Positions 496 through 17,250 of a stretch of 64,000 bases of DNA are shown piece by piece. The position numbers and the translations under genes were made by a program. Each line of letters begins with the position of its first letter. The first letter of the stretch is position 1. This DNA is from Prevotella sp. 10(H) (GTDB lineage: Bacteria > Bacteroidota > Bacteroidia > Bacteroidales > Dysgonomonadaceae), in NCBI RefSeq assembly GCF_000711235.1, contig NZ_JOMI01000009.1, forward strand, positions 496,001 to 560,000, in the 5' to 3' direction. The notes under the pieces are model-generated. The model made no database searches and was not told where the DNA came from. It saw only the letters and a list, made by a program, of their open reading frames with translations.

Positions 496-1326
496 CTATG
501 GAACCATTAGTTCTTTAGCCTCATTATAGTTGTAACGTCTCGTTCCGCTTCCTTTTGGTGTTCCGTAATTAATACGTGCGGCTGCACGCACAAATACCGT
601 ACGTCCCGAAGGTATGGTACCTTTAGACTGAATAGTAATTACTTCGCCTAATAGCGGACTAAAGTCAGAACCTGAATAGGAAAGTTCACCCGACCATGGA
701 TCGAACTGATCGTTATCATAGCTTGTTCCATAACCCACGCTCGATGAATAGCTGACAAATAAACGTACATCCGTAACGTTCACAAAATTGTTGTCATATC
801 CGCCCATAGGTTCTATCTTATTTTTGAATTCAGCCTCAGAAACTCCACGCGTAACACGTATTTTTGCTGTAACCTTTCCATTGCTAATTGTAGGCTCACC
901 TACCCATTCAATATTAAGGAAAGGCTGAACTTCAAATTTTACTTTAGTGACACCCTTTATTTCCATAGTCTGAGTATCGTCGGCTATTGGTGTGCCGTTT
1001 GCGTCTTCCCGAAGCAGAGGAATAAATGCCCCTATAACATCGATATGGTATGTACCTTTGAATAATTTGGTATTCTGGAAAGTACCATCCGACATACAAT
1101 TGAAGTCAGGATTATGCTGTACATTTTCTCCCCAGCTAAGTTCTGTCAGGCGTATATAAGTGCCTTCTCTTCCCTGATCGGTAAGTACTCTTTTTCCGGT
1201 AGCTGCATCCACGACTTCTCCTTGCAATGTTTCTTTAGGTTCATCATAGTTGTCTATCTCGAACATACTGCAGGAACTGAACGAAAACAGCGCACATAAT
1301 AAAGTATATAATGCTATTTTTTTCAT
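496..1326 (-). CDS. DUF3823-family SusD-associated lipoprotein
   Basis: Predicted outer-membrane lipoprotein that probably sits beside SusC/SusD on the cell surface and helps bind glycan. The start at 1326 is preferred because it gives a clean lipoprotein signal (MKKIALYTLLCALFSFSSC, lipid cysteine at 19); an in-frame ATG at 1365 would add 13 residues and overlap the susD stop. The first mature domain contains GEVVDAATGKRVLTDQG and later DGTFQNTKLFKGTY, which are typical of DUF3823 proteins that follow SusD genes. The C-terminal half is a beta-rich domain rich in Tyr, Ser and Gly. It is the last gene of the SusCD operon before the hairpin at 436-478. The family call rests on these motifs; the ligand is not known. 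Confidence 0.8.
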   Translation of the reverse strand: MKKIALYTLLCALFSFSSCSMFEIDNYDEPKETLQGEVVDAATGKRVLTDQGREGTYIRLTELSWGENVQHNPDFNCMSDGTFQNTKLFKGTYHIDVIGAFIPLLREDANGTPIADDTQTMEIKGVTKVKFEVQPFLNIEWVGEPTISNGKVTAKIRVTRGVSEAEFKNKIEPMGGYDNNFVNVTDVRLFVSYSSSVGYGTSYDNDQFDPWSGELSYSGSDFSPLLGEVITIQSKGTIPSGRTVFVRAAARINYGTPKGSGTRRYNYNEAKELMVP

Positions 1327-1364
1327 ATTCTTTATATTCATAATTATTGATTTTTCTATCATCA

Positions 1365-3419
1365 TTATCTGTTTGGTTGTTGGTCAATGACAAGACTCTT
1401 CGCTACCTCTCCGCCCGGGATTTCGAAATAATAATCGATCGGAGTATAGTTAAATGTTTTCAATGATGTCATTTGGAAATGAGCGTCGAAGAAATATTTT
1501 CCGGTTTCGGTAGAGAAGAATGGATAAAGCCCGCGGAAACGATAACCGTTAGAGTTTGAGAAGATGCTTTTATTTCTTATTTCTCCCCAGAATTCATCTC
1601 TGTTCTCGTAATGTTGTACACGCCAGCGTCTCAAATCCCATTTGGTTTTATGTTCGAAGGCCAGTTCTTTACGTCTTTCTTTGCGTACAATATTGCGGCT
1701 TTCTTCCGATGCAGTAAGGCTTCCTGTAAGAAGTGTGGCACCTGCACGTTCGCGGATATCATTTATCGCTTTTGTAGCTACATCCAGCATATTGCTTCCG
1801 TCAGGAGATTGTCCGCCGAGTCTTGCCAGTTCTACAGCAGATTCTGCAGCTGTAAGAAGTACATCACCATAACGTATAAGAATGAATGGCTGAGCTGATT
1901 TTCCTTGATCCGAAACGAATGAAGGATCAGGATTAAGCCATTTACGACCGTAAAGACCTGTTAAAGCAGATTCTCCTTGCGAATAGAACGGGCCGTTTGC
2001 TCCGGCAGCAGTCATTTCGGTTCCGTTATAGTTCACTTTTACCTGAGTTTCGAGCGTAGAACTTAGATATAGTGTTTTCGGATCCTTACTTGCTATATCC
2101 AACTGAGTATAGTTCTTCTCTGCATTGGCATAAGAATAATCATCGAATAGAGGTTTTACGGGTGCAGAGCCTGTATATATACCAGCCCTTATTTCAATTT
2201 CTTTACCTTTAAATATATCGCCCGGGAAAATCACATAAGCACGTAAGCGAGGTTCTGCATTTTTGAAAAAATCCAATGGCTTATCGTACATGATATATTC
2301 ACCTTGAGTATTCGAGTTACCTGTAGTAACTTTTACCGTTCCATCAGGATAACGGTCGAAACCTTCAAATAATTCGAGGAAATCGAGTGTAGGGCAAGTT
2401 CCGGAAGACAATGCGGTGCGAAATACTAAAGGTTGGCTGTAAGAGTCATATCCGTGAGTAAGAGTCGGATATAGATATTTTTTTACGAAAATATTCTCCT
2501 TACTGTTCAGGTCGCTGAACATATCTACCATATTCTGATATTGAGCTTCAGGATTATTAGCTTCCCATTTATTCTTATATAAAGAATATCTTCCGTCGGT
2601 TATTATTTGATGTGCAGCTTTGTATGCTTCGCTGTAATATCTTTTAGCTGCAGCATTCCATCTGTCTTCTGCAAAGCCGATTACACGTACACCTGTTTTT
2701 TTACCTAAACCGGTAAGACGTCCCGAAACCTTTTCATTGTACTGTGCTACACTACCTGCATATAACATTGCTTCAGCTTTGAATGCGAGCGCCACATATT
2801 TATTAGAGTAACCATCCTTAGGACTTTCCGGTAACATTAAAGAAATGGCCTGATCGAAATCGGCAAGTATTTGATCCCATGTCTCTTCTTCACTGGCGCG
2901 TGGAACTTCTAATGCGGATTTGTCAGCCGGATATTCTATAACTTTAGTTACCAGTGGCACCCCTCCGAAACGTTTTGCCATTGTATAGAATACAAAAGCG
3001 CGTACGTAATATGCTTCACCTATATAATGATTATAATTTGCTTCGGAATAAGAGTCTCTGTAAGTAGGTAAATTTTCGATCAGGTAATTAGCATGACGCA
3101 ATAACTCGAATGCCGGCCCCCAGTATGTTGTTCTTTCTCCATTGAAAGTTTTACAAATACCATCTCTGTTAGTCGCTTCTCCTGTAGCCTCGATTCCCAT
3201 AGCTCCAAGCCATGAATTAAACTCAAAGCCCCATTCGCCGAGATATTTAAATTCCTCGAATGGCATTTTACTATATACACGTGACATATAAATGTCCATA
3301 CCTGCATCGTTCGATAAGAGGTCATCATCTGTAATCAGCCCTTTTGGCGGTACATCCAAATCCACACAAGCGGTGAAAGAAAGTATACCAAGCAGGGATA
3401 TTATAAATATTTTTTTCAT
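1365..3419 (-). CDS. SusD/RagB-family glycan-binding lipoprotein
   Basis: Surface lipoprotein that caps a SusC channel and delivers oligosaccharides to it. The signal MKKIFIISLLGILSFTAC places the lipid cysteine at residue 18, followed by the acidic VDLDVPP seen after lipidation in many SusD proteins. The helical TPR-like N-terminal half includes the AYYVRAFVFYTMAKRFGGVPL region. Near the C-terminus the family signature appears as RKERRKELAFEHKTKWDLRRW. At 684 residues it is longer than many SusDs. It lies directly after susC (41 bp gap) and touches the DUF3823 gene, so the three are surely co-transcribed. Neighbouring GH76 suggests alpha-mannan as ligand (inference). Confidence 0.95.
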   Translation of the reverse strand: MKKIFIISLLGILSFTACVDLDVPPKGLITDDDLLSNDAGMDIYMSRVYSKMPFEEFKYLGEWGFEFNSWLGAMGIEATGEATNRDGICKTFNGERTTYWGPAFELLRHANYLIENLPTYRDSYSEANYNHYIGEAYYVRAFVFYTMAKRFGGVPLVTKVIEYPADKSALEVPRASEEETWDQILADFDQAISLMLPESPKDGYSNKYVALAFKAEAMLYAGSVAQYNEKVSGRLTGLGKKTGVRVIGFAEDRWNAAAKRYYSEAYKAAHQIITDGRYSLYKNKWEANNPEAQYQNMVDMFSDLNSKENIFVKKYLYPTLTHGYDSYSQPLVFRTALSSGTCPTLDFLELFEGFDRYPDGTVKVTTGNSNTQGEYIMYDKPLDFFKNAEPRLRAYVIFPGDIFKGKEIEIRAGIYTGSAPVKPLFDDYSYANAEKNYTQLDIASKDPKTLYLSSTLETQVKVNYNGTEMTAAGANGPFYSQGESALTGLYGRKWLNPDPSFVSDQGKSAQPFILIRYGDVLLTAAESAVELARLGGQSPDGSNMLDVATKAINDIRERAGATLLTGSLTASEESRNIVRKERRKELAFEHKTKWDLRRWRVQHYENRDEFWGEIRNKSIFSNSNGYRFRGLYPFFSTETGKYFFDAHFQMTSLKTFNYTPIDYYFEIPGGEVAKSLVIDQQPNR

Positions 3420-3459: not shown

Positions 3460-6400
3460 TTAGAACGTGAGCGACATACCTACCGTATAGGTTTTATTCA
3501 GAGGATAGAGTCTACCGTTTTCCTCATCAGGATGCTCAGGGTCAACAAATTTTACTGCTGTTATGGTAAATAAGTTATAAGCATTTGCAAATACACGCAG
3601 ATTCATTGACGGTAATGCTTTTATTTTCGGTATTGTATATCCGAATTCGATGCTTTTAAGACGCAGATATGCTGTACTGACACGGTTAAATTCAGAATTC
3701 ACATCCGGGGAAGGGCGTCCTGTGTAACTATAATGGCCCTTTATCCACTCTGTTTTAGGATCATAAATGTCTGCCTTAGGATCTGCCGGATGCCAGCGGT
3801 CCAAATATTGCTCGAGAACTCCGCCTCCATTACTTCCCCATATAGCATATAAAGGTTCTGTGTATACCATTGAGCCGAGTGCCGATCCTTGGAAAAGTAC
3901 ATTCAGGTCAAAGTTTTTGTAGGCAAAGTCAAGATTCAAACTATAGTTTAACCATGGTGTCTGATCGAAAGCATACGGATGCATATCCAATCCGTTGATC
4001 TGACCGTCGCCATTCCAGTCCTGATATTTATAATCACCCGGTACAAGGGCACTTTCCTTATAAGTCGGATATGTCCATATATCCTGCCAGTTTTGGTAAC
4101 GTCCTGCAGATTCATAACCGAATTGTACACCTTGATAACGGTTATTAAGATTGTCGTTTCTCCAGCGATCGTAAGAGTTTGACCACGGGCCTTTTTCCGA
4201 TCCTACCAGTCGTTTCTGACGGGTAACGGTACCAATAGCTTTTACCCTGTAAGAGAAATCATTGATTCTGTTTCGATGGGTCATTTCCAAATCTAAACCA
4301 AAATGACGTTCACTATCCAGATTTTCGCGCGGTGCTGTAGAGCCTACTACAGTAGGAAGTTCCCCTGTGTTACGAGCAAAAAGCCCTTTTTGTTCTCTGT
4401 TGAAATAATCTAATGAGAAGCCGAATAATCCGTTCCATCCTTCAAAGTCTACACCGACATCAAAAGTGCGTGCTGTATACCATGTAGAATTTGCATTAGG
4501 CAAAGCTAGAGGGCTGAATGCCGTTACGAATTGACCATTAAACAGATATCCGGGAGCCCATTGTGCGTAATAGCCATTCTCTGCATTACTGCTTGTAGCG
4601 GGGTATTCGTATCCTGTCGCCCAGTCATATTCAAGTGCTCCGTCGTTACCAAGTTCTCCATAACTGGCACGGAATTTCAATTGTTCAACAAATGAAAGAG
4701 CTGATATATTTTTGAAGAAAGGCTCTTCTGATAAACGCCAGCCTATCGATGCCGAAGGGAAGAATCCCCATCTGTTTTTCGGAGTGAACTTAGAAGACCC
4801 GTCGTAGCGGAATTGGAATTCTGCAATATAACGGCTTCCGAATGCATAATTCACACGGCCTATCCAAGAAGAATAAGTATGGTCATATACGTCACCCTTA
4901 TTGCTGGACATGCCACCTATTTGAGTGGCATCATTGTGTCCTGCCGATAAATATGGGGTTGTAAAGGCAAGGTTGCGCTGTGCATAAAAGTTGTCGCCTT
5001 TTTGCTTTTGACCTTCCCAACCCAATACTCCGGTTATGGCATGATCTCCGAATGTACGGTTATAGTTGAGGAGAATCTGTCCTAATGTTTGTTGTTTATC
5101 GAATATTTCGCGACGAAGCTGCGACGGAGCGCCTTTCTCATATCTTTGTCTTGTATACGAGTCGGTATCCTTATCGTAAGCGTATTGATAATACTCTCTA
5201 CGATAAGATTCGTTATTATCCATGCGATAATCATAGCTGAATAATCCTTTCAGAGTCAAGCCTTTTAATTCCGGAGTTATTACGCCGAGGTCGTAGTTTA
5301 GAGAAACTGAAGACTGGAAATATTTTTGTTTATATTTCTTATAACCGGATATGTCAGAGTTTATGAATGCTACCGGATTTTCAAACTCTTCCAGTCCTTC
5401 ATAGTTCAACATTGTATTCTCAGGGTCTGCATATGCTCCATATATTGGGCCTTGTCTCCAATAGGAGCGGATAATGTCCTGTGTTCTCGCATACGGAGTA
5501 TTCCGTTCGTCCAAGACTCCGCTCAGGTTTAAATCCAATGTTAAACCATTAGCAATTTTAGTGGTGATATTCGAACGAAGATTGAATTTATCATAGTTCA
5601 AGTCACCGGTTTTAAAGAAACCTTCCTGATAGAAATAACCCATTCCGATGTAATACTGAGTTTTCTCATTGCCACCCGATACACTGACATCATGCTGAGT
5701 CTGAGGTGCCGTATCGGCAAAGATCAGAGAGTTCCAGTCGGCTGCGCGTCTTGTCCCATTACGGAATTCTTCAAACACATGATCTCCGAATTCAGGAACA
5801 TACACACCATTATTCTTAATATTATTACCTTTTTCGTTAGACAGGGTCATTGCATCATATGGATTCACCAGTTTAGGCATGCCCGAAGGAGCCTGCAGAG
5901 TAAAGGAGCCATTATAAGAGACAGTAGTCTTGCCGTCTTTTGTTCCTTTCTTAGTGGTTACCAATACAACACCGTTAGCCGCACGCACCCCGTAGATAGC
6001 TGCAGAAGCGTCTTTCAGTACAGATATATCGTCAATATCGTTTGCGTTTAAGCGTTGGAAGTCTGCAGTTGTGCGTGGGATACCATCGATAACTATCAAT
6101 GGAGCACCCAGCCCGCGTATATCAAAGTTATTATTGAAAGTTCCCGGCTCGGCACTTTTTTGCCATACACGTACACCGGCAATTTTACCGGTAAGCATAT
6201 TCTGCGGGTTTTCATTCTTTGTCTTTATCATTTCGTCGCCCTTGATACCTGCAACAGCACCTGTAAGGGTAACCTTTTTCTGTACACCATATCCCACTAC
6301 CACTACGTCTTCTAGCGTAGTTGCATCGACTTTCAGAGCAACGTTGATCTGTGTACGTCCGTTTACTTTTTCTTCTACAGTACTATATCCGATAAACTTA

Positions 6401-6648
6401 ATTACCAGTGTAGCATCTGCAGGGGCCTCCAGACTATATTTACCATCCACATCGGTAATGGTACCCATAGTAGTATTCTTAATCGATACACTCGCTCCCG
6501 TTACAGGTTCGTTAGTTTCATCAGTAACTACCCCTGATATGGTTCTGTTTTGCGCCAATAATGATAGAGGTGCAAAAGCTATCATTAACACCAGTAAAAT
6601 GCACGAATATAGCGTCCGCATTTTTCTTGTATGCCGTGTTTCTATCAT
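3460..6648 (-). CDS. SusC/RagA-family TonB-dependent outer-membrane transporter
   Basis: Outer-membrane beta-barrel that imports oligosaccharides with energy from TonB. After a signal peptide ending SLLAQ (about residue 33) come a carboxypeptidase-regulatory-like domain (about 35-110, GVVTDETNEPVTGASVSI), the SusC region EDVVVVGYGVQKKVTLTGAV, a plug domain (about 125-235, with DDISVLKDASAAIYG) and a long barrel ending in an aromatic strand (YTVGMSLTF). There is no N-terminal STN domain, so it is not expected to signal to a FecR/sigma pair, unlike the SusC at 53148. This fits control by the separate regulator at 10780. An alternative ATG nine codons in gives an equally good signal peptide. It is 1062 residues long, normal for the family. 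Confidence 0.96.
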   Translation of the reverse strand: MIETRHTRKMRTLYSCILLVLMIAFAPLSLLAQNRTISGVVTDETNEPVTGASVSIKNTTMGTITDVDGKYSLEAPADATLVIKFIGYSTVEEKVNGRTQINVALKVDATTLEDVVVVGYGVQKKVTLTGAVAGIKGDEMIKTKNENPQNMLTGKIAGVRVWQKSAEPGTFNNNFDIRGLGAPLIVIDGIPRTTADFQRLNANDIDDISVLKDASAAIYGVRAANGVVLVTTKKGTKDGKTTVSYNGSFTLQAPSGMPKLVNPYDAMTLSNEKGNNIKNNGVYVPEFGDHVFEEFRNGTRRAADWNSLIFADTAPQTQHDVSVSGGNEKTQYYIGMGYFYQEGFFKTGDLNYDKFNLRSNITTKIANGLTLDLNLSGVLDERNTPYARTQDIIRSYWRQGPIYGAYADPENTMLNYEGLEEFENPVAFINSDISGYKKYKQKYFQSSVSLNYDLGVITPELKGLTLKGLFSYDYRMDNNESYRREYYQYAYDKDTDSYTRQRYEKGAPSQLRREIFDKQQTLGQILLNYNRTFGDHAITGVLGWEGQKQKGDNFYAQRNLAFTTPYLSAGHNDATQIGGMSSNKGDVYDHTYSSWIGRVNYAFGSRYIAEFQFRYDGSSKFTPKNRWGFFPSASIGWRLSEEPFFKNISALSFVEQLKFRASYGELGNDGALEYDWATGYEYPATSSNAENGYYAQWAPGYLFNGQFVTAFSPLALPNANSTWYTARTFDVGVDFEGWNGLFGFSLDYFNREQKGLFARNTGELPTVVGSTAPRENLDSERHFGLDLEMTHRNRINDFSYRVKAIGTVTRQKRLVGSEKGPWSNSYDRWRNDNLNNRYQGVQFGYESAGRYQNWQDIWTYPTYKESALVPGDYKYQDWNGDGQINGLDMHPYAFDQTPWLNYSLNLDFAYKNFDLNVLFQGSALGSMVYTEPLYAIWGSNGGGVLEQYLDRWHPADPKADIYDPKTEWIKGHYSYTGRPSPDVNSEFNRVSTAYLRLKSIEFGYTIPKIKALPSMNLRVFANAYNLFTITAVKFVDPEHPDEENGRLYPLNKTYTVGMSLTF

Positions 6649-6665: not shown

Positions 6666-8135
6666 TTATTTATCTTTTTCCAGTTCGTAACGTGCTAATA
6701 CAGCATATTCGGCAGCAAAAGCGAATGTAAACATGTCTTTTACCCGGTTGTTGTTATTATCACGGCTCCATCCCAATAGTAGGTTAGTAGGAAGGAAACT
6801 TTTGTAAACAAAGTTTTTATAGCTGTAATCCAGATTCTTTTGGAAGCTATCTATTGCTTTTGATGCATTGCTATATAATGGGTAGATGTCCACATATCCG
6901 CGCATCAATACTCCGTTGAACCAGTTTCGGTCACCGCTGATATCGTAAGTATAATATCCGGCTACTGTGGTTCCCAGTTTAGCAAAGTATTCAAAGCTTG
7001 CATCCGTCAGTTTTTTAGCATCTTCCAGATATACACTGTTGTTGGTTACGCGATACAGGTCTGCAGCACCGGAAAGCATTGTTCCGCTGTTGTAGCTGAT
7101 TGCCGGTCCTGCCCGGTCAGGCAAAGGAGTATTTATACGATACCTTTTCCCTCCAACAGTTTCATAATGTATGTTTTCATCACTGAACCCGCCCATCATA
7201 TCATCATATACACCGTCGGGGCGCAAAAGATGATTCTTTTGGTAGTCGTATATCTTTTTGGCAAAATCCAGATAATAATTACTTTTCTTTACAGAAACGC
7301 TTTTACGGCTTTTATCCGGTTCTATATAACGGTGAGTAGTCTCGTCATTCTTACCTTTATATAATTCATGGAGCCATACTAAAGGGCTAACCATAGGGCC
7401 ATTACTACATGAATGTTTTGATACATAGCCGGGTCCCCAAGTGATTCCTCCGTTTTCTTTACCGTTATTATCCAAAGTACAATCCCAGCCGTCGAGAACA
7501 TATTCTGTAAGATATTCAGCTTCTTTAAGATACGTATCATTGCCTGTCAGCTTATAAGCTTCGAGCAATTCACGTATCAGCCATTGCTGATCATCGTATA
7601 CATTTTCTCTGTGTTCTACATTTGCCGAACCTTTATCACCAGCTCTATGAACTCCGTATACAGTCCATTCTCTAGTCTGTGTGTATGAAGTAAGGGTGAA
7701 TGTTCCTTTATAGTAGGCAGCATTGTCATAGAGTTTGGCCAGTAAGTCAGTATACTTATTGAAGTACTGGTTATAGAGTTCAGGCTTTCCGTTATCTTTC
7801 AGGGATTTGAGCCCGTGTAAAACTGTATTCACCGCTTCGATCGAACTGGTATAATCCCATACACTTCCTGTTTCCTCTTCTCCTTTCGAGTTGGTACGCG
7901 CTCCGGTATAAGGATTGTAATACATAGACAATTTCATACCTGTACCTTCAAAATAGTTTGATACGGCAGCATCAACTATTTCCATTGCTTTGGAAAGGTT
8001 TTCCTCTGCTACAGTCTGTGTCGGTGCAGGGTCTGGATTCCCTCCGCCATTATCGGAACCATCATCCGAATCGCTACAAGCATTAGTACTTAAAATGAAT
8101 AGAGAGGAGAGAATAGTGATAACTATTTTTTTCAT
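6666..8135 (-). CDS. GH76-family lipoprotein, probable endo-alpha-1,6-mannanase
   Basis: Predicted lipoprotein (MKKIVITILSSLFILSTNAC, cysteine 20) with a flexible Ser/Asp/Gly linker and an (alpha/alpha)6-type catalytic domain of the GH76 family, which cleaves the alpha-1,6-mannan backbone of fungal mannan. The adjacent catalytic aspartates characteristic of GH76 are visible as D181-D182 in ENVYDDQQWLI. Other family-like blocks are SVWDYTSSIEAVNTVLHGL, NGGITWGPGYVSKHSCSNGPMV and NSGTMLSGAADLYRVT. The 489-residue length fits. It lies 17 bp before susC and 80 bp after the duplicated-domain lipoprotein. A lipid anchor plus surface SusCD suggests cutting at the cell surface to make importable oligomannosides. 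No GH92 or GH125 partner is present in the window. Confidence 0.85.
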   Translation of the reverse strand: MKKIVITILSSLFILSTNACSDSDDGSDNGGGNPDPAPTQTVAEENLSKAMEIVDAAVSNYFEGTGMKLSMYYNPYTGARTNSKGEEETGSVWDYTSSIEAVNTVLHGLKSLKDNGKPELYNQYFNKYTDLLAKLYDNAAYYKGTFTLTSYTQTREWTVYGVHRAGDKGSANVEHRENVYDDQQWLIRELLEAYKLTGNDTYLKEAEYLTEYVLDGWDCTLDNNGKENGGITWGPGYVSKHSCSNGPMVSPLVWLHELYKGKNDETTHRYIEPDKSRKSVSVKKSNYYLDFAKKIYDYQKNHLLRPDGVYDDMMGGFSDENIHYETVGGKRYRINTPLPDRAGPAISYNSGTMLSGAADLYRVTNNSVYLEDAKKLTDASFEYFAKLGTTVAGYYTYDISGDRNWFNGVLMRGYVDIYPLYSNASKAIDSFQKNLDYSYKNFVYKSFLPTNLLLGWSRDNNNNRVKDMFTFAFAAEYAVLARYELEKDK

Positions 8136-8216: not shown

Positions 8217-10031
8217 TTAGTTTAGATCGATACTATAGAATACAAGCTTATTTTCATCACCATTGAGCTCGCCTTTGTGTACTCCAAAGGTTAGTACTAC
8301 ATTCTTGCCATTGAATTGTGAAAGGTCGTAGACAAATGATGCATAATCCTTAGCACTGTCTTTACCTCCTTTACCATGCTTAAACTTCCAACAGCCGTCG
8401 TCAGCCGCAGATGCTTCTTCCGCCGTGTTTGATTCAGGAGTTAAGTATGTCACTGTACCATTTTCTTCTATTGCGGTAATTTTGAAGAAAGTGTAGTTGC
8501 TTCCAAAATTACGTGTCTTAAATGTCAACTTATTATTTCCGCTCGCTATAGCATATTTAGAATAGAAATATGCCTCAGGTACTTTCGTATTTATAGCGCC
8601 ATCATTACCTTTCGTTTTAAGCAGGTAGCCTTCTGAAGGAGTTATTTCCGGATCTTTATTTACAGGAACAAGTGACCATTCATATCCTACGTGGCTTACA
8701 TTACGCCAAGACTGATAAATTTCCTGACGTTGGTCTTTTCCGCCACCTACAGGGCTGATACCGGTAAATGATTTTTTAGTATTTACCATTGTCGAACGTA
8801 CCATTTCCTGTGTCATATGCCAGCCTTCCAATCCTGCAACTTCTGTACCCGGTAACCAATCCCAGTTTTCAACTTTTCTATCAGCAAAGCGGATAGCACG
8901 AAGTACAAGCTGTTTCCAGTAATCGCCTGTTTCTTTACGGTAAATACCGACAGCGATGATTACTTCTTTGCCGATATATTCACTCAAGTCGAAATCGAAG
9001 TCTGCATATTTATCCGAGCCATAAGTTTTAGTATCTCCGATTTTCTTAGCTTTAGGTTCGGCATCGCTCAGATTAACTACTTGTACACCGAAGTATGCAG
9101 GAGCATTATCGTCTGCATTGTGTGTCCTTACTCTCAAAGAAAGTATTTTGTTATCTTCCGAAATCAGTTTGCTACCGTAAACATAAGAGTCAAAGACATC
9201 TAGGCTAGCAGGATTTTTCTGCTCGTTTCCGCTATTGCGTATCTGCAGCGTAGTTCCTTCATTTTGCTCTTGCCATGCCCCTTTGAAGTTTAGCGTAGCC
9301 ATATAGTCGGTAGACCAGTCCCAATGAGGGTAAGCATCTCCATTGCCTCCGCCGCGATATTCGTTATAGTACCATTTATCAGCTTCTTCTAAATCGTTTA
9401 CGCTTAATCCCGGTAAAGGCTCGAAGCCACTCATTTGTAAATTGATAGTTGCTACTCCATTTACAAAATCACTTTTCGATACCGATTTTATTACCGATAC
9501 ATATTCCGCTTTGGAGAATGTTACCGTATAATCATCTATAGATAAGTATTCGATAGCATATGTACCGTCGCTTCCGCTAGTTGCAGTTTTCTCAGCACTG
9601 ATAGTAACAGTAACGCCGGCAAGCGGTGCCCCGTTGTTATTGCCGTCGAGGATGGTACCTGTGATTTTGGCAGAAGCATCTGTCATAGATACGCTGATAG
9701 TGGCCACTTTGCTGCCATCGAAATGACCAGCTAAAACTGTTGAGCTGATTGTCTGATAGCCCGTTTTCGTGAAACTGACAGCATGTTTTTCCATAGAAAC
9801 ATTCGGAAAAGAGTATTTTCCGTCGGATCCGGTTGTAACCGATCCTTCCACATCTGATATAGTGACAGTAACGCCCGAGATAGGATTATCCATCAGGTCG
9901 GTAACAGTACCGGTGACAGTACCAAAATCGACATTGACAGACTCATCGTCGTCACTACAACTTGCAAAGGATACTATTGTTCCCAGCAAGACGGCGAACA
10001 CAAAGGTTCTTAAGATTCTGATTCTTTTCAT
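8217..10031 (-). CDS. Lipoprotein with two carboxypeptidase-regulatory-like domains and two related beta-sandwich modules
   Basis: First gene of the minus-strand PUL. Lipoprotein signal MKRIRILRTFVFAVLLGTIVSFASC (cysteine 25). Two successive CarboxypepD_reg-like folds follow: about 36-105 (GTVTDLMDNPISGVTVTI, then GSDGKYSFPNV) and about 118-200 (GTILDGNNNGAPLAGVTVTI, then GSDGTYAIEYL). The rest contains two modules that resemble each other: about 280-395 ending DFDLSEYIGKEVIIAVGIYR, and about 490-604 ending VYDLSQFNGKNVVLTFGVHK. They look like jelly-roll carbohydrate-binding domains, but I cannot name the family and no catalytic motif is visible. The position suggests a surface glycan-binding protein for the GH76/SusCD system, standing where other PULs carry a SusE/SusF-type protein. 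The function is inference. Confidence 0.7.
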   Translation of the reverse strand: MKRIRILRTFVFAVLLGTIVSFASCSDDDESVNVDFGTVTGTVTDLMDNPISGVTVTISDVEGSVTTGSDGKYSFPNVSMEKHAVSFTKTGYQTISSTVLAGHFDGSKVATISVSMTDASAKITGTILDGNNNGAPLAGVTVTISAEKTATSGSDGTYAIEYLSIDDYTVTFSKAEYVSVIKSVSKSDFVNGVATINLQMSGFEPLPGLSVNDLEEADKWYYNEYRGGGNGDAYPHWDWSTDYMATLNFKGAWQEQNEGTTLQIRNSGNEQKNPASLDVFDSYVYGSKLISEDNKILSLRVRTHNADDNAPAYFGVQVVNLSDAEPKAKKIGDTKTYGSDKYADFDFDLSEYIGKEVIIAVGIYRKETGDYWKQLVLRAIRFADRKVENWDWLPGTEVAGLEGWHMTQEMVRSTMVNTKKSFTGISPVGGGKDQRQEIYQSWRNVSHVGYEWSLVPVNKDPEITPSEGYLLKTKGNDGAINTKVPEAYFYSKYAIASGNNKLTFKTRNFGSNYTFFKITAIEENGTVTYLTPESNTAEEASAADDGCWKFKHGKGGKDSAKDYASFVYDLSQFNGKNVVLTFGVHKGELNGDENKLVFYSIDLN

Positions 10032-10160: not shown

Positions 10161-10206
10161 CAAAGATTATGGGTTAATGGTTAATGAATGGGTTAAAAAA
10201 GGGTTA
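10161..10206 (-). promoter_or_regulatory. Direct-repeat operator overlapping the predicted PUL promoter
   Basis: The motif GGTTAA (plus strand) starts at 172, 179, 191 and 202 past 10000; the last copy is GGTTAT. Spacings are 7, 12 and 11 bp. Directly next to it on the minus strand is AATCTTTG (10168-10161), one mismatch from the Bacteroidetes -7 consensus TAnnTTTG, so the repeats occupy the -33 region. The first codon of the PUL is about 130 bp downstream. Repeats at about one helical turn over the upstream promoter element resemble activator sites for OmpR-type winged-helix/BTAD regulators, and such a domain is encoded next door. Binding is inferred. Confidence 0.45.
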
Positions 10207-10645
10207 TATTTTAGAAAAAATCATTAACCTTTTTTATATTTTGGCCTTTTCTGTATTAATTGTTTTTTTGTCAGTTCTCTTATTGGTTTTATTGATTATC
10301 TTCGTGTCTAAGTATATTTATATGATTAATTTCCGATTAGTTGCTGTCTTTGTGACAGAATTAACTCATATAAAGTAGCAGGGCTTTGTTTCGAAAGGAT
10401 CTGGTAGATTTCAACTACGATAATAGACGTACTCTCCATATAAATTTTTAAAAAAAGCATAGGATATTCTTTATCTATGGCTGATATCAGGAAAAATATT
10501 CAGTTTATATATGTTTTTTAATATGTATCGTTTAATAATGGCGATTGAATAATCAGTGAATTCTAATTATGAACAAAAATGATGTGGACGCTAAACTAAT
10601 TGCTATAAGAATAAAATATCTAATCTATATCAACAAACACAACTA

Positions 10646-10703: not shown

Positions 10704-10779
10704 ACCGAATGGGGGACAATTATAATAAGATTCAGCAATGCTTTACCGTGTTGCTCTATACGGAAATCAATTTAAATCT

Positions 10780-13281
10780 ATGAAACTATCTCATTTTGTA
10801 TTTATTATTTTAAGCCTTTCGGCTTCGCAGACGACTTTTTCTCAAGGATTAAAGTTTTATGGTGGTGACCATCCTATTAATGAACGGACATCGTACAATG
10901 TATTTAGTAATAAATCACCTGAATTCTCAGGATATTTTGATATCGAATTCGATCTATCCCTATATCCGGCCCGACAGATAGGATATATAATAAGAATCAA
11001 AAATGAAGACAGCAATAAGATATTTAATTTATTCTATGACGGACAAGGTGGCAACCATATATTCAAACTAAACGAAGAAGGCAGGAGCAGTCTTATTACG
11101 GCAGAAATCGGACGGGAAGAACTTATGAATGCACATTGGTTTAAGATGATTATTTCTTTCGACCTGAAAAAAGATTCTATAAAATTTACGATTCATGATA
11201 AGACATTTGCTGCAGGTGATGTAAGGCTATCTGAAAAATACCGTCCCGTAATAGTTTTTGGAAAGAGCGACCATGTTATTGATGTGCCTTCCTTTGCTAT
11301 AAAAGACCTTTCTGTGGGGAACAGCCGCAGGTATATTTTTGAGTTGAGGGAAAGCGAAGGTAATTTTATTTATGATATAAAAGGAAAGCGGAGGGGAGAT
11401 GTTTTGAATCCCGAATGGCTTATTAATGATTCTTACCATTGGCGTTTCAAAGCTGCTTTTGGGTCAGAGACTGTGGCAGGGGCAAACTACAATGCTGAAA
11501 AGAAAGAGATATATTATTTTAACAAGGATTCAATAATAATATACAACGTAAGAACAGGAGACAAGAAAACAGAAATATTCAAGGAACCATGCCCGATAAA
11601 GCTCGTGCTAGGCTCCAATTTCATTGAGACAAAAAATAATGAATTATTTGTATACGAGGTGTTTTATGACCTTGATAAGCCCTATGACGGACCTAGTGTA
11701 GCCAGCCTTGATTTATCTACTTATGAATGGACAGTAAGGAGCAACCACAGATTACCCAGACAGTTGCACCACCACGCATCGTATATCGATCCCTCTACTG
11801 GCAGATATACAATCTTCGGAGGTTTTGGCAATATGTATTATAATAAGGATTTTTACTATTTCGATTCCCAATCAGAAGAGTGGCATCAGATTGAAGGCCT
11901 TGAAGGGGACCCGATATTTCCAAGATACTTCTCATCTGTAGGATATTTGGATAAGACAAAATCTGTATATGTATTTGGCGGAATGGGAAATGAATCAGGA
12001 GAACAGGTCGTCGGGCGAAGATATTTTTACGATCTACATAAGGTTGATCTTAGTACGAAAAGAGTTGAAAAATTATGGGAAATCCAATGGGATAAGGATT
12101 ATATTGTTCCTGTAAGAGGCATGGTGATACTTAACGATTCTTGTTTTTATACTTTATGTTACCCTGAGTCTTTTTCAGATTCATTTCTCCAGCTTTACCG
12201 CTTTTCTTTAACAGATGGGAGTTATGAGATTCTGGGAGATTCTATTCCGATACATTCTGATAAGATAACAACAAATGCAAACCTGTATTATGACAATCAA
12301 TTACATAGTCTCTATGCCCTTGTTCAGGAATTTGACGATGATATAGTTTCTGACCTGAAAATCTATTCTTTAGCATTTCCTCCTATCACTGCCGAAGACT
12401 TGGCAAGTTACCCGAAAGGCAAGAATGATAATACTGCTTTGCGGGTAATTATTATTTCGTGTGTATGTGTGACGGCTATCGTATATTTCTTTTTCAGAAG
12501 ATTTAATTCGAAATACGGTAATAACCGGAATGAATCGGGAGGTTTACAAAAACATAGTAATGAGTCTAAGGAGGTCAGGGCCAACTCGATTTATCTTTTC
12601 GGTGATTTTACCGTACGCGACAAACGTGGAAAAGATATTACATATATGTTGAGTACGAGATTAAAACAAGTACTCTTTCTTGTACTTCAACACAGTGTAG
12701 ACAATGGTATAACTTCTCAGCGTCTCAGCAGCCTGCTATGGCCGGGTAAACCGGAAGATAAAGTAAAGAATTCAAGGGGGGTTACTATCAATCATTTACG
12801 TAAGGTATTGAGCGAATTGGACGGAATAGAATTAATATATGATAAAGGTTATTTCCGCATCGTGCAGACTTCGGATTTCTATTGTGATTATGAGAGATGT
12901 ATAAATATAATTTCGACAAATAAGACAGAAGAGAATAAAGCTGAATTAGTAAGGATACTGACCAGAGGTAAATTCCTCAAATCCTCCGATCATCCTTTGT
13001 TCGATTCGTTTAAAGAGGAGGTTGAACAAAGAATTGAACCTGTATTATTATCCGAAATGGAGAAAAGTTACGATATGGAAGATTACCGTTCAACTATCTG
13101 TTTTGCAGAAGCTATATTCAACATTGATGCATTGAATGACGATGCTCTTATTTTTCAGACCAGAGCCCTGAAAAGATTGAAAATGGATGACGAGGCCAGA
13201 ATAAGGTATCAGGCTTTTATTATTGAATACAAGAAAGCTATGGGGAAAGATTATCATTATTCATATAAGGATTTGAATTAG
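10780..13281 (+). CDS. Trans-envelope one-component regulator: periplasmic Kelch sensor, membrane helix, OmpR-type winged helix and BTAD-like domain
   Basis: The ATG at 10780 is chosen because it opens directly onto a signal peptide (MKLSHFVFIILSLSASQTTFSQ); an ATG at 10738 would add 14 unrelated residues. Layout of the 833-residue product: about 20-190 a concanavalin/laminin-G-like beta-sandwich; about 230-545 a Kelch-type propeller (YTIFGGFGNMYYNKDFYYFD, SVYVFGGMGNES); 553-573 a transmembrane helix (VIIISCVCVTAIVYFFF); about 602-705 a winged helix (IYLFGDFTVRDKRGKDIT, TSQRLSSLLWPG, GVTINHLRKVL, YDKGYFRIV); 706-833 a helical BTAD-like tail with TPR-like repeats. The expected role is to sense a periplasmic glycan and regulate DNA directly, without kinase or receiver. 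It faces the GH76 PUL and precedes a GH78 region, so either may be its target. Domain calls are from motifs; the ligand is unknown. Confidence 0.8.
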   Translation: MKLSHFVFIILSLSASQTTFSQGLKFYGGDHPINERTSYNVFSNKSPEFSGYFDIEFDLSLYPARQIGYIIRIKNEDSNKIFNLFYDGQGGNHIFKLNEEGRSSLITAEIGREELMNAHWFKMIISFDLKKDSIKFTIHDKTFAAGDVRLSEKYRPVIVFGKSDHVIDVPSFAIKDLSVGNSRRYIFELRESEGNFIYDIKGKRRGDVLNPEWLINDSYHWRFKAAFGSETVAGANYNAEKKEIYYFNKDSIIIYNVRTGDKKTEIFKEPCPIKLVLGSNFIETKNNELFVYEVFYDLDKPYDGPSVASLDLSTYEWTVRSNHRLPRQLHHHASYIDPSTGRYTIFGGFGNMYYNKDFYYFDSQSEEWHQIEGLEGDPIFPRYFSSVGYLDKTKSVYVFGGMGNESGEQVVGRRYFYDLHKVDLSTKRVEKLWEIQWDKDYIVPVRGMVILNDSCFYTLCYPESFSDSFLQLYRFSLTDGSYEILGDSIPIHSDKITTNANLYYDNQLHSLYALVQEFDDDIVSDLKIYSLAFPPITAEDLASYPKGKNDNTALRVIIISCVCVTAIVYFFFRRFNSKYGNNRNESGGLQKHSNESKEVRANSIYLFGDFTVRDKRGKDITYMLSTRLKQVLFLVLQHSVDNGITSQRLSSLLWPGKPEDKVKNSRGVTINHLRKVLSELDGIELIYDKGYFRIVQTSDFYCDYERCINIISTNKTEENKAELVRILTRGKFLKSSDHPLFDSFKEEVEQRIEPVLLSEMEKSYDMEDYRSTICFAEAIFNIDALNDDALIFQTRALKRLKMDDEARIRYQAFIIEYKKAMGKDYHYSYKDLN

Positions 13282-13391: not shown

Positions 13392-14471
13392 ATGAAAAAT
13401 ATCCTGATTTTAATCTGTTATTTTTATGCATTATCTCTGAATGCACAACGCTCGGAGCTTAAATTTCATGAACTTGCAGCCCCCGATACAGGACGGCTTT
13501 GGATACAGCCAGCGAAGAATAAACCGGCAATGGCAATCTGGGGACATGCAAAAGGAATTTCTGTTGCAATCCCCCAGCAGGATATCATGCCAAGAGGATT
13601 GATACGTATTTTTACTCCATATTTAGATCACATGCCTCATGTTGTTACTAATTTCATTGCTATGGAGCCAATACCTGCCGGGCAGGAGCACAGAGGGCTC
13701 TCCGAACTTGAGATGAGCAGTATGGATCCGGGGATACGTGGTAAGAGATTTTGGAGTTCGAATGATTCCGGATATTCAACAAACAATAATGAAATATATC
13801 CTGCAAGAGGAATTATCGAAGAAAAGAACGGAAAACAAACGCTGACTGTTTATATTTTCTGTGAGCCATTCGATAACGGGGCAAAAGTGTATGTTCGTCT
13901 ACGGTTTTTTGAAGAGCGTCCTTATGAATTTGAATTGACAAGTTATGCCTCGGAGGAATCTGTATCTCTCGATAGTTTTATCCTCACTGCTACTATGGCT
14001 AATAAAGCCCGACTGCGAACCCTTTACCTTAAGGATTACAAAAAAGTGTCTTCAGAAATATGGCCTGACTATAGAGGAGATGCATTTACACCACATGCAT
14101 TCTTCTCAATTAAAGATATGATACATGGCCCTGAAGGGCATGCTTACTTTATAGCAGCCCCGAATGAAAAAGATCCCTCGAAGGCTATATATGCAGCAGA
14201 TACTCATCAACATTGGAAATATACGGGAAAGAAAGCAACCCAATATTGGATAAGTACCACGCCGGATGAAAAATTACAAGGGATTGTCAATGGTCGTTAT
14301 ACTTATTGGGCAAGTCAATCTCCGATACCGGGAGGCATTTCATTCGAAAATTTTGAGATGAAACAGCCTTTTAAGAATGGTAATCGCTATATATTCGGAA
14401 TTATACCTGACTCGCCGGAAGAATTTAAAAAACAAGCATTAAAGGGTAGATATCATAATTATAATAAGTAA
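13392..14471 (+). CDS. Secreted protein of unknown family (possible glycan-active or lectin-like protein)
   Basis: A 359-residue product with a signal peptide ending SLNAQ (residue 19), so periplasmic or surface located. The mature part is rich in aromatic residues and predicted beta strands. Segments such as RGLIRIFTPYLDHMPHVVTNFIAMEPI, shortened here in meaning to a strand-rich core, and PEGHAYFIAAPNEKDPSKAI are not ones I can place in a named family. No lipobox and no recognised catalytic motif. It starts 110 bp after the regulator and converges with the GH78 rhamnosidase gene, with a large hairpin between them. Genes of this kind beside rhamnosidases often encode auxiliary glycoside hydrolases or lyases, but that is guesswork here. 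Confidence 0.75.
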   Translation: MKNILILICYFYALSLNAQRSELKFHELAAPDTGRLWIQPAKNKPAMAIWGHAKGISVAIPQQDIMPRGLIRIFTPYLDHMPHVVTNFIAMEPIPAGQEHRGLSELEMSSMDPGIRGKRFWSSNDSGYSTNNNEIYPARGIIEEKNGKQTLTVYIFCEPFDNGAKVYVRLRFFEERPYEFELTSYASEESVSLDSFILTATMANKARLRTLYLKDYKKVSSEIWPDYRGDAFTPHAFFSIKDMIHGPEGHAYFIAAPNEKDPSKAIYAADTHQHWKYTGKKATQYWISTTPDEKLQGIVNGRYTYWASQSPIPGGISFENFEMKQPFKNGNRYIFGIIPDSPEEFKKQALKGRYHNYNK

Positions 14472-14628: not shown

Positions 14629-17250
14629 TTACTGATTAATAGTGAAAACATGCTCTCCGCCTTTCACTTCTTTCGTCGTTTCACCCGGCAGGATAATCGA
14701 GGCTGTACTTGTTGCAGGTATAGTCACTTTCAATGTAACCTTGTTTCCTTCACGTTTCCATTCCGATTTTATTACTCCTTGCTGAGAATCATGCGACGCT
14801 TTTACCCAGTCGAGGCCCTGAACAAAAGACGGTTTGATGATTATCTTCTTAAACGCAGGTTCCGCAGGATCGAGATTAATACCCGCGAGATATTTATACA
14901 TCCATGCATTTATTGCTCCCATCGACGGATGATTTAATGAAGCATCACCTATACGGCGTGTAACATCCCATGTTTCGTAGAGGGAAGTAGCATCCGTTTC
15001 TTTTATCCAGTAACCCCATGAAGGAAGTGTTGTTTTGGTTGCCATACGAAAAGCTGCATCGGTATTTCCTGTTTCGGAAAGTGCATCGGGAACCATTACA
15101 CTTCCAATAAATCCAAAGTCGAGGTTACCATCTGTTTCCTTCATTTTTTCGCGTAGGTTTTCTGCCAGACGGTCTTTATATTCAGCAGGAACAATATCAA
15201 AATATAAAGGAAGTGCGTAAGCCAGCTGTGTCTTATTAGAATATGATACAGTCTTAGTATCGAAGAAATTATCATTTATCCGTTTTTTTAATACGGCCGC
15301 TTTATCCAGATATTTTTGTTTTTGATCGCTACGGCCGATGAGTTCCGACATTTTGGCCATCACTATATTATTCCAATATACGTAACTGGTTGTCATAAAA
15401 TCTACAGGGGTCTCTGCTTTGTAGAATAGCCAGTCATTCAATCCGTGATTTATAAGTCCGCGTTCGTCTTCCCTTGTTTCTATATATTTCATATAGCGTT
15501 CGGCTGTCGGATATATTTCACGTATCGTTTCGATGTCGCCTGTATATTGATAAAGCGTATACGGAACAATAAAGATTGCAGCATCCCATATTGGCCCGGC
15601 CCAGTTTGAATCCCATTTCCATGATGTAGGCACAATTCCCGGAACATTTCCATTCTCTTCTTGTGCATCTATCATATCCCTTACCCATTTGGCATATACA
15701 TTCCGGCTGTCATATGTAAACATTCCGGCTTCCTGTACCATAAAACCATCAGCCATCCAGCCGTTTTTTTCACGGGTAGGGCAATCGGTTGGTATTCCGA
15801 ACAGATTGCTTAAATAAGAACGGTTACATATCTCATTTATCTTATTTAAAAGCTCATTAGAACACTCAAATGAACCTATCTTATCTACATTGCTATGCAT
15901 CACCACGCCTGTAAGCGTATTTTTATCTATAACCATCGGTTCACTAAGAGTAACTTCGATATAACGGAACCCATGATAGGTAAATTGAGGGAAGAATTCT
16001 TCTATACCTTGTCCCTTAAGTGTATAAATATCTGTCTGTATCACCTCGCGGCTATTGCGGGGACGTAAATGCATATTGATATTCTGTTGATCGATATTTC
16101 CTTCTTTGTCCAGCATTTCAGCATGACGCAACTTTACACTGGCGCCAGCAGGGCCTTTTATTTTCAAAGAACATACTCCCGCGAAGTTTATTCCCATATC
16201 AACGATGTATGTTGTATCATTCTTTTGAGTTACGGATACGGGAGTTACTAAGTCTGAAAAACTGATAGCGGGCATTTTCATTGCTTCCACCAATGGAGCC
16301 GGAGATGTGGTAAGCTTTGCATTTTTCCATGCCGAATCATTGAAACCCGCAGTATTCCATCCTTTTTGTTCTTTGCGTGCATCATATGTTACACCTACGT
16401 GTATGTTGTCGAACAAATAAGGCCCGGTAGAAGTTTTCCAGCTATTGTCGCTTAGAATTTTTTCCTGAGTACCGTCAGTGTAAGTTATGAGTAGCTCACA
16501 TATCAATCTCGGGCGGTCTTTCCATGGTGCTTGGTGAAAATTCCACACGGTAGGAGTCTGTTCATTATACCAGCCGTTACCAAGCTGTATACCTGCTGCA
16601 TTTTTGCCTTTTTTAATAGCTTTGGTAACGTCATATGTAGAATAGAGTACTCTCTTGCCGTAATCGGTAAAGCCCGGATCCAGCAGATTGTTTCCTATCT
16701 TTTCTCCGTTTAAGAATAATTCATAATAACCCAATCCGCTTATATAGTAACGTGCCGACGCAATATTTTTATTTACAGTAAAGTCTTTTCGGAACATAGG
16801 TGAAGGCTCATAATCACTGTTATGATCATCTGTAATCCACGATGCATTCCAATCTGTTAAAGACATCTTTCCTGTTTCGAACCATGTCGGCTGTGACTTT
16901 ATGGTCTTATTTCCCGAAATCACTTCGACCATTACCCAGTAGCGCGTGTGTGATTTCAGCCTGTTTCCTTCATAATATACAAGCTGATCTTCTGTCTTTA
17001 TCTTTCCCGAATCCCAGATATCGGCTTTGCCTTTCATTACATTTTCTTTCGAAGAGGCTACCAGCAATCTGCATTCATCTTGTTTGAAAGGAGACTTTGA
17101 ATTTATTTTCCACATAATCCTCGGGTTTTGGACATCGATACCTAACGCTTCTTCCATGTATTCACATTTCAGAGAAGTGATATTTTGAGCTGAGAGGTTA
17201 AGGGTTAATAATATCGATACTAATAACAGAAATGTTTTTAAGTGTGTCAT
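14629..17250 (-). CDS. GH78-family alpha-L-rhamnosidase
   Basis: Secreted enzyme predicted to release terminal alpha-L-rhamnose by an inverting mechanism. Signal peptide ends NLSAQ (residue 22). An N-terminal beta-sandwich begins LKCEYMEEALGIDVQNPRI, the usual opening of Bacteroidetes GH78 proteins, followed by the rhamnosidase N domain (ARYYISGLGYYELFLNGEKIG) and the (alpha/alpha)6 barrel. The catalytic-region motif is DCPTREKNGWMADG at 489-502, carrying conserved acidic residues D489, E494 and D501; later come NDWLFY, SWGYWIKE and TSLYETW. The C-terminal beta domain includes IIKPSFVQGLDWVKASHDS. Length 873, normal. It is transcribed alone, opposite to the gene at 13392. The 200 bp upstream carry no clear TAnnTTTG. 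Confidence 0.93.
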   Translation of the reverse strand: MTHLKTFLLLVSILLTLNLSAQNITSLKCEYMEEALGIDVQNPRIMWKINSKSPFKQDECRLLVASSKENVMKGKADIWDSGKIKTEDQLVYYEGNRLKSHTRYWVMVEVISGNKTIKSQPTWFETGKMSLTDWNASWITDDHNSDYEPSPMFRKDFTVNKNIASARYYISGLGYYELFLNGEKIGNNLLDPGFTDYGKRVLYSTYDVTKAIKKGKNAAGIQLGNGWYNEQTPTVWNFHQAPWKDRPRLICELLITYTDGTQEKILSDNSWKTSTGPYLFDNIHVGVTYDARKEQKGWNTAGFNDSAWKNAKLTTSPAPLVEAMKMPAISFSDLVTPVSVTQKNDTTYIVDMGINFAGVCSLKIKGPAGASVKLRHAEMLDKEGNIDQQNINMHLRPRNSREVIQTDIYTLKGQGIEEFFPQFTYHGFRYIEVTLSEPMVIDKNTLTGVVMHSNVDKIGSFECSNELLNKINEICNRSYLSNLFGIPTDCPTREKNGWMADGFMVQEAGMFTYDSRNVYAKWVRDMIDAQEENGNVPGIVPTSWKWDSNWAGPIWDAAIFIVPYTLYQYTGDIETIREIYPTAERYMKYIETREDERGLINHGLNDWLFYKAETPVDFMTTSYVYWNNIVMAKMSELIGRSDQKQKYLDKAAVLKKRINDNFFDTKTVSYSNKTQLAYALPLYFDIVPAEYKDRLAENLREKMKETDGNLDFGFIGSVMVPDALSETGNTDAAFRMATKTTLPSWGYWIKETDATSLYETWDVTRRIGDASLNHPSMGAINAWMYKYLAGINLDPAEPAFKKIIIKPSFVQGLDWVKASHDSQQGVIKSEWKREGNKVTLKVTIPATSTASIILPGETTKEVKGGEHVFTINQ

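Follow-up and report, generated by a model that had tools for sequence, protein, structure and literature searches.

The window analysed here is a 64,000-nt stretch of the genome of Prevotella sp. 10(H) (contig NZ_JOMI01000009.1, positions 496,001 to 560,000). On its plus strand it carries a gene for an 833-aa protein, from here on the regulator, which is divergent from an operon encoding a lipoprotein, a GH76 protein, SusC, SusD and a DUF3823 protein. The features of the locus are listed below, with positions counted from the first letter of the window unless L018 is given.

L018:9631-13155, plus strand: LytTR-type histidine kinase and response regulator
3-266, continuing at L018:18098-20000, minus strand: 722-aa PUL protein
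496-1365, minus strand: DUF3823 protein
1365-3419, minus strand: SusD
3460-6648, minus strand: SusC
6666-8135, minus strand: GH76 protein (alpha-1,6-mannanase family; Pfam, PDB match)
8217-10031, minus strand: CarboxypepD_reg lipoprotein, first gene of the predicted target operon (Pfam)
10161-10169, minus strand: -7-like element TAATCTTTG of the PUL operon
10179-10206, plus strand: predicted operator GGTTAA-N6-GGTTAA-N5-GGTTA, spacings 12 and 11
10224-10229, minus strand: repeat unit in inverted orientation (plus-strand sequence TTAACC)
10780-13281, plus strand: regulator gene, 833 aa, with signal-like N-terminus, N-terminal domain, Kelch propeller, transmembrane helix and predicted SARP-type module
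10843-11394, plus strand: N-terminal exported domain, residues 22-205 (weak assignment)
11698-12225, plus strand: Kelch repeats, residues 307-482 (PF24681)
12439-12495, plus strand: transmembrane helix, residues 554-572 (Kyte-Doolittle scan)
12586-12864, plus strand: predicted OmpR/SARP-type winged helix, residues about 603-695 (family alignment, hhalign)
12880-13260, plus strand: predicted BTAD-type helical tail, residues about 701-827 (family alignment, Pfam, hhalign)

Beyond the window the operon continues with the 722-aa protein, a GtaA-like protein and a GH92 protein. The GH92 protein matches solved alpha-1,2-mannosidases (1312.9 bits) and the GH76 protein matches GH76 mannanases (E 1.8e-13 and weaker), so that the facing operon was assigned as an alpha-mannoside PUL; the conservation of an operon with GH76, SusCD and GH92 likewise points to alpha-mannosides. 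A rhamnosidase gene (14629-17250) and an open reading frame downstream of the regulator, 13392-14471(+), were dropped as parts of the system because neither has a counterpart in the regions flanking the first ten relatives of the regulator, which share 53-64% identity with it. The latter reading frame encodes 359 aa with a signal-like start and gave no Pfam or NCBIfam match. The 722-aa protein has relatives of 733-734 aa that are conserved in the Cytophagales group described below. The pieces searched had no Pfam match and the relative at L013 matched nothing in the PDB (E up to 1), and we regard the protein as a candidate for an unclassified enzyme of alpha-mannoside PULs.

The initial annotation stated that this PUL has no other regulator in the window. 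This holds for the window itself and needs a rider, as the LytTR two-component pair sits next to the GH92 gene, at the PUL's 3' end shortly beyond the window, and an ECF sigma factor and FecR follow at a greater distance (L018).

Domain architecture of the regulator

The regulator gene is a stop-free reading frame. Translation from an ATG further upstream, at 10738, would yield 847 aa; the start at 10780 opens a signal-peptide-like stretch when the sequence is read by eye. Most of the architecture claimed in the initial annotation was borne out. The Kelch region scored above the cut-off of PF24681 (E 3.3e-15, 56.4 bits vs a cut-off of 50). The proposed absence of kinase and receiver agrees with the Pfam search, in which only Kelch families appeared at E up to 0.1, with no HisKA/HATPase, receiver or AraC domain and no sigma-70 regions or FecR domain. 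The regulator hence combines a predicted DNA-binding domain and a transmembrane helix in one chain that is free of phosphorelay domains. The single membrane helix also recurs across the family: an internal helix was scored in 54 of 55 module-bearing rows (one of them a duplicate, L059 = L017), the exception being L090, and Lys plus Arg residues were more numerous after the helix than before it in 52 of 54 rows and equal in number in the other two, a positive-inside bias. The linker between the helix and the module, which measures about 230 residues, varies among relatives.

The description of the N-terminal domain as lectin-like fared less well. No Pfam match was obtained for this domain in the window protein, Laminin_G_3 was matched weakly in 2/24 relatives (best 5e-4), and an hhalign comparison with a LamG pair was negative (Prob 0.6). 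A LamG identity thus found little support; the domain is possibly jelly-roll or LamG-like, a weak assignment.

The C-terminal module had been proposed to consist of an OmpR-type winged helix and a BTAD-like tail. With Pfam, the window module alone gave Trans_reg_C at E 0.12, below the cut-off and suggestive only, while among 15 family modules (E up to 1) BTAD was matched in five (best 4.8e-4) and Trans_reg_C in five (best 5e-4). A profile search of the PDB with the module returned apolipoprotein E as the best match (0.059), with SaeR at 0.24 and AfsR at 3. Single-sequence searches of Pfam, NCBIfam and the PDB were thus each insufficient to establish a DNA-binding module. Profile-profile comparison gave a firm result. 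The 15 aligned family modules were compared by hhalign with nine aligned proteins carrying winged helix and BTAD, which had been picked by Pfam BTAD from other genomes of the same phylum, and matched at Prob 99.3 (E 3e-20, 224 columns). The halves matched in register (winged helix to winged helix 97.1, BTAD to BTAD 97.7), and all controls, comprising crossed halves, reversed profiles, ten column-shuffled profiles, SusC and SusD, stayed at Prob ≤0.2. By this homology the module is predicted to be a SARP-type winged helix plus BTAD. Because it stands C-terminally, behind a transmembrane helix, we speak of a SARP-type module and not of a classical SARP. A PF03704 search of the regulator's own genome returned no match, so a BTAD search alone misses the family there.

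The regulator family and its association with PULs

The own genome encodes two regulator paralogues with 26% identity, one of which, at C1:788404, lies away from PULs (27.8 kb). Family members were detected in 17 of 25 genomes of the window's genus, with up to seven per Dysgonomonas genome, and in a class-wide sample the module was matched in 8 of 396 genomes, the own one included and G097 by a 52-aa piece only. Leaving out that piece and the duplicate L059 (= L017), 54 distinct loci were counted. The gene at L017 (Dysgonomonas sp. Marseille-P4361, Bacteroidales), one of the first ten relatives, is identical to the one in G415, which belongs to the genus of the window; on this ground we assign the window to Dysgonomonas.

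The part ahead of the membrane helix differs between members. In the L006/L023 gene (G186), two LamG_3 domains and no Kelch match precede the helix and the module, and the proteins at L088 (G308) and L089 (G396), of about 500 aa and without Kelch, have a short N-terminal domain in this place. Within Bacteroidota the family is frequent in Dysgonomonas and occurs sporadically in other lineages, and its sensor is exchangeable.

A survey of homologues for their position beside PULs, proposed in the initial annotation, found SusC in the examined flank of 37/54 loci and SusC or SusD in 42/54, counts in which some contigs end early. Among the 12 loci without either gene, L009 lies in the same PUL on wider sequence (L164), and in the L016 genome the start of the PUL is on a separate contig (L161). 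In G413 and G000 together, seven of eight members lie within 10.5 kb of SusD, a limit picked after the distances were seen, vs 0.23 (G413) and at most 0.20 (G000) for a random 2.5-kb gene.

Eight relatives, L008-L014 and L016, form one branch of the regulator tree. We call this branch the Cytophagales group; its members from Ohtaekwangia, Dawidia and Chryseosolibacter are Cytophagales, L008 is labelled likewise, and it includes three MAGs labelled otherwise (L011 Bacteroides sp., L012 Chitinophaga sp. and L016 Flammeovirgaceae). The group has the same operon genes in the same order at 52-70% identity, complete in G744 and G745 and in pieces in the remaining genomes; at L013 and L014 the GH92 and GtaA-like genes are absent at that place. 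The regulator is located at the 3' end of the operon and is convergent with it, as seen in six genomes, the other two being split over contigs. From the shared PUL and the tree, in which branching support was moderate (0.725), we infer that PUL, operator and regulator were passed together between Dysgonomonas and Cytophagales.

A conserved repeat array at the predicted promoter of the operon

The gap between the lipoprotein and regulator genes contains GGTTAATGAATGGGTTAAAAAAGGGTTA (10179-10206), three direct repeats that we predict to be the operator. On the operon strand, the -7-like element contains TTTG at a distance of 14 bp from the proximal repeat and has three bases between TA and TTTG, vs two in the consensus; the sections consulted of one study give the Bacteroides -7 box as TAnnTTTG and the -33 box as TTTG (PMC7366714). 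SARP sites consist of 11- or 22-bp direct repeats, the 3' one of which stands 8 bp away from the -10 box, according to part of one source (PMC10936776), and some comprise three heptamers overlapping the -35 element, according to part of another (PMC10972967). In silico, the locus likewise has direct repeats of about 11 bp at the -35 region of the putative target promoter. The array is unique in the 4.3-Mb genome at up to two mismatches (reversed control 0), and the same array occurs in the corresponding gap at L017 and L054-L058 (0-1 mismatches) and L015 (2 mismatches).

An inverted copy, ATTAACC, follows about 18 bp past the third repeat, after an A-rich run, and is also present at the same place in L017, L056-L058 and others, sometimes altered. 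This copy, and the overlap of the array with the core promoter, would suit a protein that represses the PUL from the same site until a ligand releases it. We consider such repression quite improbable, as SARP-type proteins of this geometry are described as activators in the portions cited of both SARP sources (PMC10936776, PMC10972967), and we continue with the array as a predicted activator site.

In the Cytophagales group the array was found 35-130 bp upstream of the lipoprotein gene in 8/8 genomes (0-2 mismatches). Regulator and array are on one contig, 12-19 kb apart, in six of the eight and on separate contigs in G743 and G751. Since the array is upstream of the operon while the regulator is distant, the array stays with the operon promoter and not with the regulator gene. 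The initial annotation had tied the regulator to the PUL that it faces, and this link gains strength from the conserved gene content together with the conserved predicted operator. By eye, TTTG is exact at 14 bp in four of the eight genomes (G745, G746, G747, G751), has one mismatch in G743 and is missing in G748 and G749, and in G744 the repeats are shifted; L157 and L158 lack TTTG at 13-14 bp.

The constant neighbourhood of lipoprotein gene and array, in the window and in all eight of these genomes, also bears on what is sensed. Kelch propellers often bind proteins, and the Kelch domain might sense a protein partner, e.g. the lipoprotein encoded by the first gene of the operon, rather than a glycan. 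Against this stands the family variant in which the sensor is a pair of LamG_3 domains, as glycan binding is frequent in this fold. We rate a protein partner as a real but minor possibility and retain a glycan as the favoured signal.

The distances of 12-19 kb between gene and promoter, the variable linker after the membrane helix, and the candidate second sites 17-22 kb away that are described below would suit a module that regulated proteolysis releases from the membrane, so that it activates in soluble form. We judge this release unlikely and prefer a module that remains anchored.

When 27 further genomes were searched at up to two mismatches, the GGTTAA pattern gave 41 matches vs 40 for the reversed control, i.e., no enrichment, so that support comes from the place of the matches and from those with 0-1 mismatches only. 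Of the latter, 14/15 are at the orthologous regulator or its PUL (the reversed control was counted at up to two mismatches). The remaining one, in G400:C44 (L162, about 4848), is an array with TTTG at 14 bp before another SusC operon; a family member is absent within 121 kb on this contig, and the operon is a possible regulon member in trans.

Gaps were also scanned without a preset motif, with L059 (same gene as L017) removed from the gap scans. Among 212 gaps searched for triple repeats of 11/12-bp period, 29 were unmatched by 20 shuffles, and 21 of these border a regulator and have a TTAA/GGTTA-type repeat. GGTTAA triplets with at most 3/18 mismatches occurred in 30/80 regulator-bordering gaps vs 2/201 others, and ten permuted hexamers in 0-3 of the 80. 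These 30 arrays have an exact CAAA/TTTG at 13-14 bp in 14 cases, and in 20 cases if single-letter departures of the form (C or T)AA(A or G) count as well. The generalised form CAAA-N13/14-(NNTTAA)x3, with at most one mismatch, was present in 41/66 regulator-bordering gaps vs 2/243 others, and on the wrong strand in 6/66; as this form was shaped on the same gaps and the loci are related, these counts are not independent tests. Per locus, the generalised array lies beside 36/54 regulators. By the triplet scan, L023, L060, L063, L065 and L066 have a GGTTAA-type array, the eight loci of the Cytophagales group have theirs at the distant promoter, and among the 54 loci scanned the array was absent at L019, L061, L088, L089 and L092. 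Repeat types, assigned by eye, tend to agree with the branches of the regulator tree.

Six of the 30 GGTTAA arrays had first been scored in the wrong orientation. The TTAA core is palindromic, and the rescan with the generalised form superseded this reading: on the expected strand, L070, L071, L072 and L077 score 0 mismatches and L073 and L082 score 1, with L071 and L072 also scoring 0 on the wrong strand.

LytTR proteins are another group that recognises spaced direct repeats, and a LytTR pair stands beside the GH92 gene of the window PUL. The array could accordingly be owned by another regulator, such as the response regulator of this pair at the opposite end of the PUL, with the Kelch protein acting elsewhere. 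LytTR-like matches (E up to 1e-5) were, however, found at only nine of the other loci examined, three of them below 1e-20, whereas arrays of the same form lie beside the 36 of 54 regulators counted above. We consider LytTR ownership very improbable and assign the array, as a prediction, to the membrane-bound regulator.

In an exact search of 18 genomes, the generalised form had 35 matches vs 5 in reversed controls. Eighteen of them (15 distinct sites) are ≤500 bp from a family member, six are within 10-22 kb of one and 11 have no member near. Six of the 35 are directly upstream of a gene for a protein of 888-901 aa, in the expected orientation (L165:13704, L166:13978, L167:6816, L168:7474, L169:5853 and L170:3665); five of these are 17-22 kb from a member and the sixth, in G406:C26, is on a contig without one. 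The arrays before this gene possibly mark a second target operon of one extended locus.

Proposed mechanism and relation to known regulators

The architecture, the module homology, the association with PULs and the conserved array with its place were all computed here. We hold with good confidence that they are best explained by a one-component, membrane-anchored activator of SARP type that acts on the PUL through the conserved array. The N-terminal domain and the Kelch propeller would be periplasmic and would sense a product or a partner of PUL activity, an alpha-mannoside being the most likely signal for the window member. A single transmembrane helix would couple this sensor to the cytoplasmic SARP-type winged helix and BTAD module. 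Two or three modules may bind head to tail on the 11-12-bp direct repeats NNTTAA (here GGTTAA), in an array that sits where the -33 element would be, beside the -7 box of the PUL operon. Bound modules would then recruit RNA polymerase, as described for AfsR, and the likely switch is that a signal makes the anchored modules cluster on the array.

It also appears likely to us that these proteins form a further class of PUL regulators. They would be SARPs that span the membrane and have periplasmic sensors that can be exchanged, and their operators would follow a code specific to the clade, with three NNTTAA repeats beside a -7 box. In this view they moved between Dysgonomonas and Cytophagales along with an alpha-mannan PUL and the operator belonging to it, and in some lineages a regulator governs more than one operon within a single extended locus. 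If this is true, the readable operator would make regulons predictable from sequence in Dysgonomonas and soil Cytophagales, the class would illustrate how a SARP module can be gated from outside the cell, and the regulator would offer a compact one-gene glycan-responsive switch. It further raises a testable mechanical question: by what route an activator anchored in the membrane gets to a promoter that lies 12-19 kb from the gene encoding it.

The control of PULs is usually explained by HTCS, SusR-like or ECF/anti-sigma systems. HTCS resemble the regulator described here in that a single chain, encoded next to PULs for mannan among others, unites a periplasmic propeller-type sensor with a DNA-binding domain, and the mannan PULs of B. 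thetaiotaomicron were assigned to HTCS, in the part consulted of PMC3878776. In contrast to HTCS, the regulator is without histidine kinase, receiver and AraC domain. ToxR and CadC also combine an OmpR-type winged helix, a transmembrane helix and a periplasmic sensor in one chain; to our knowledge, their winged helix is N-terminal and there is no BTAD. SusR-like proteins are membrane one-component PUL regulators with a periplasmic sensor and a cytoplasmic DNA-binding domain; by description, SusR differs in that its DNA-binding part is atypical and its predicted repeats are spaced by 67 or 77 bp (PMC3878776, same part). A survey of transmembrane regulators does not name a SARP/BTAD class in the sections consulted (PMC10269533), and the matches listed from the open-access literature included no study of a Bacteroidota SARP linked to Kelch or to the membrane.

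There is also a likeness to the SARP activators of Streptomyces (AfsR, ActII-ORF4, DnrI, PimR). It consists in the winged helix and BTAD module and in the predicted operator of direct repeats with 11-12-bp period beside a -7/-10 box (PMC10936776, PMC10972967, both in part). SARPs are soluble proteins that carry this module N-terminally, whereas here the module is C-terminal, after a transmembrane helix and an exported Kelch region. Membrane-anchored SARP-type activators of PULs apparently constitute a class beside HTCS, ECF/anti-sigma systems and SusR, the latter compared by description.
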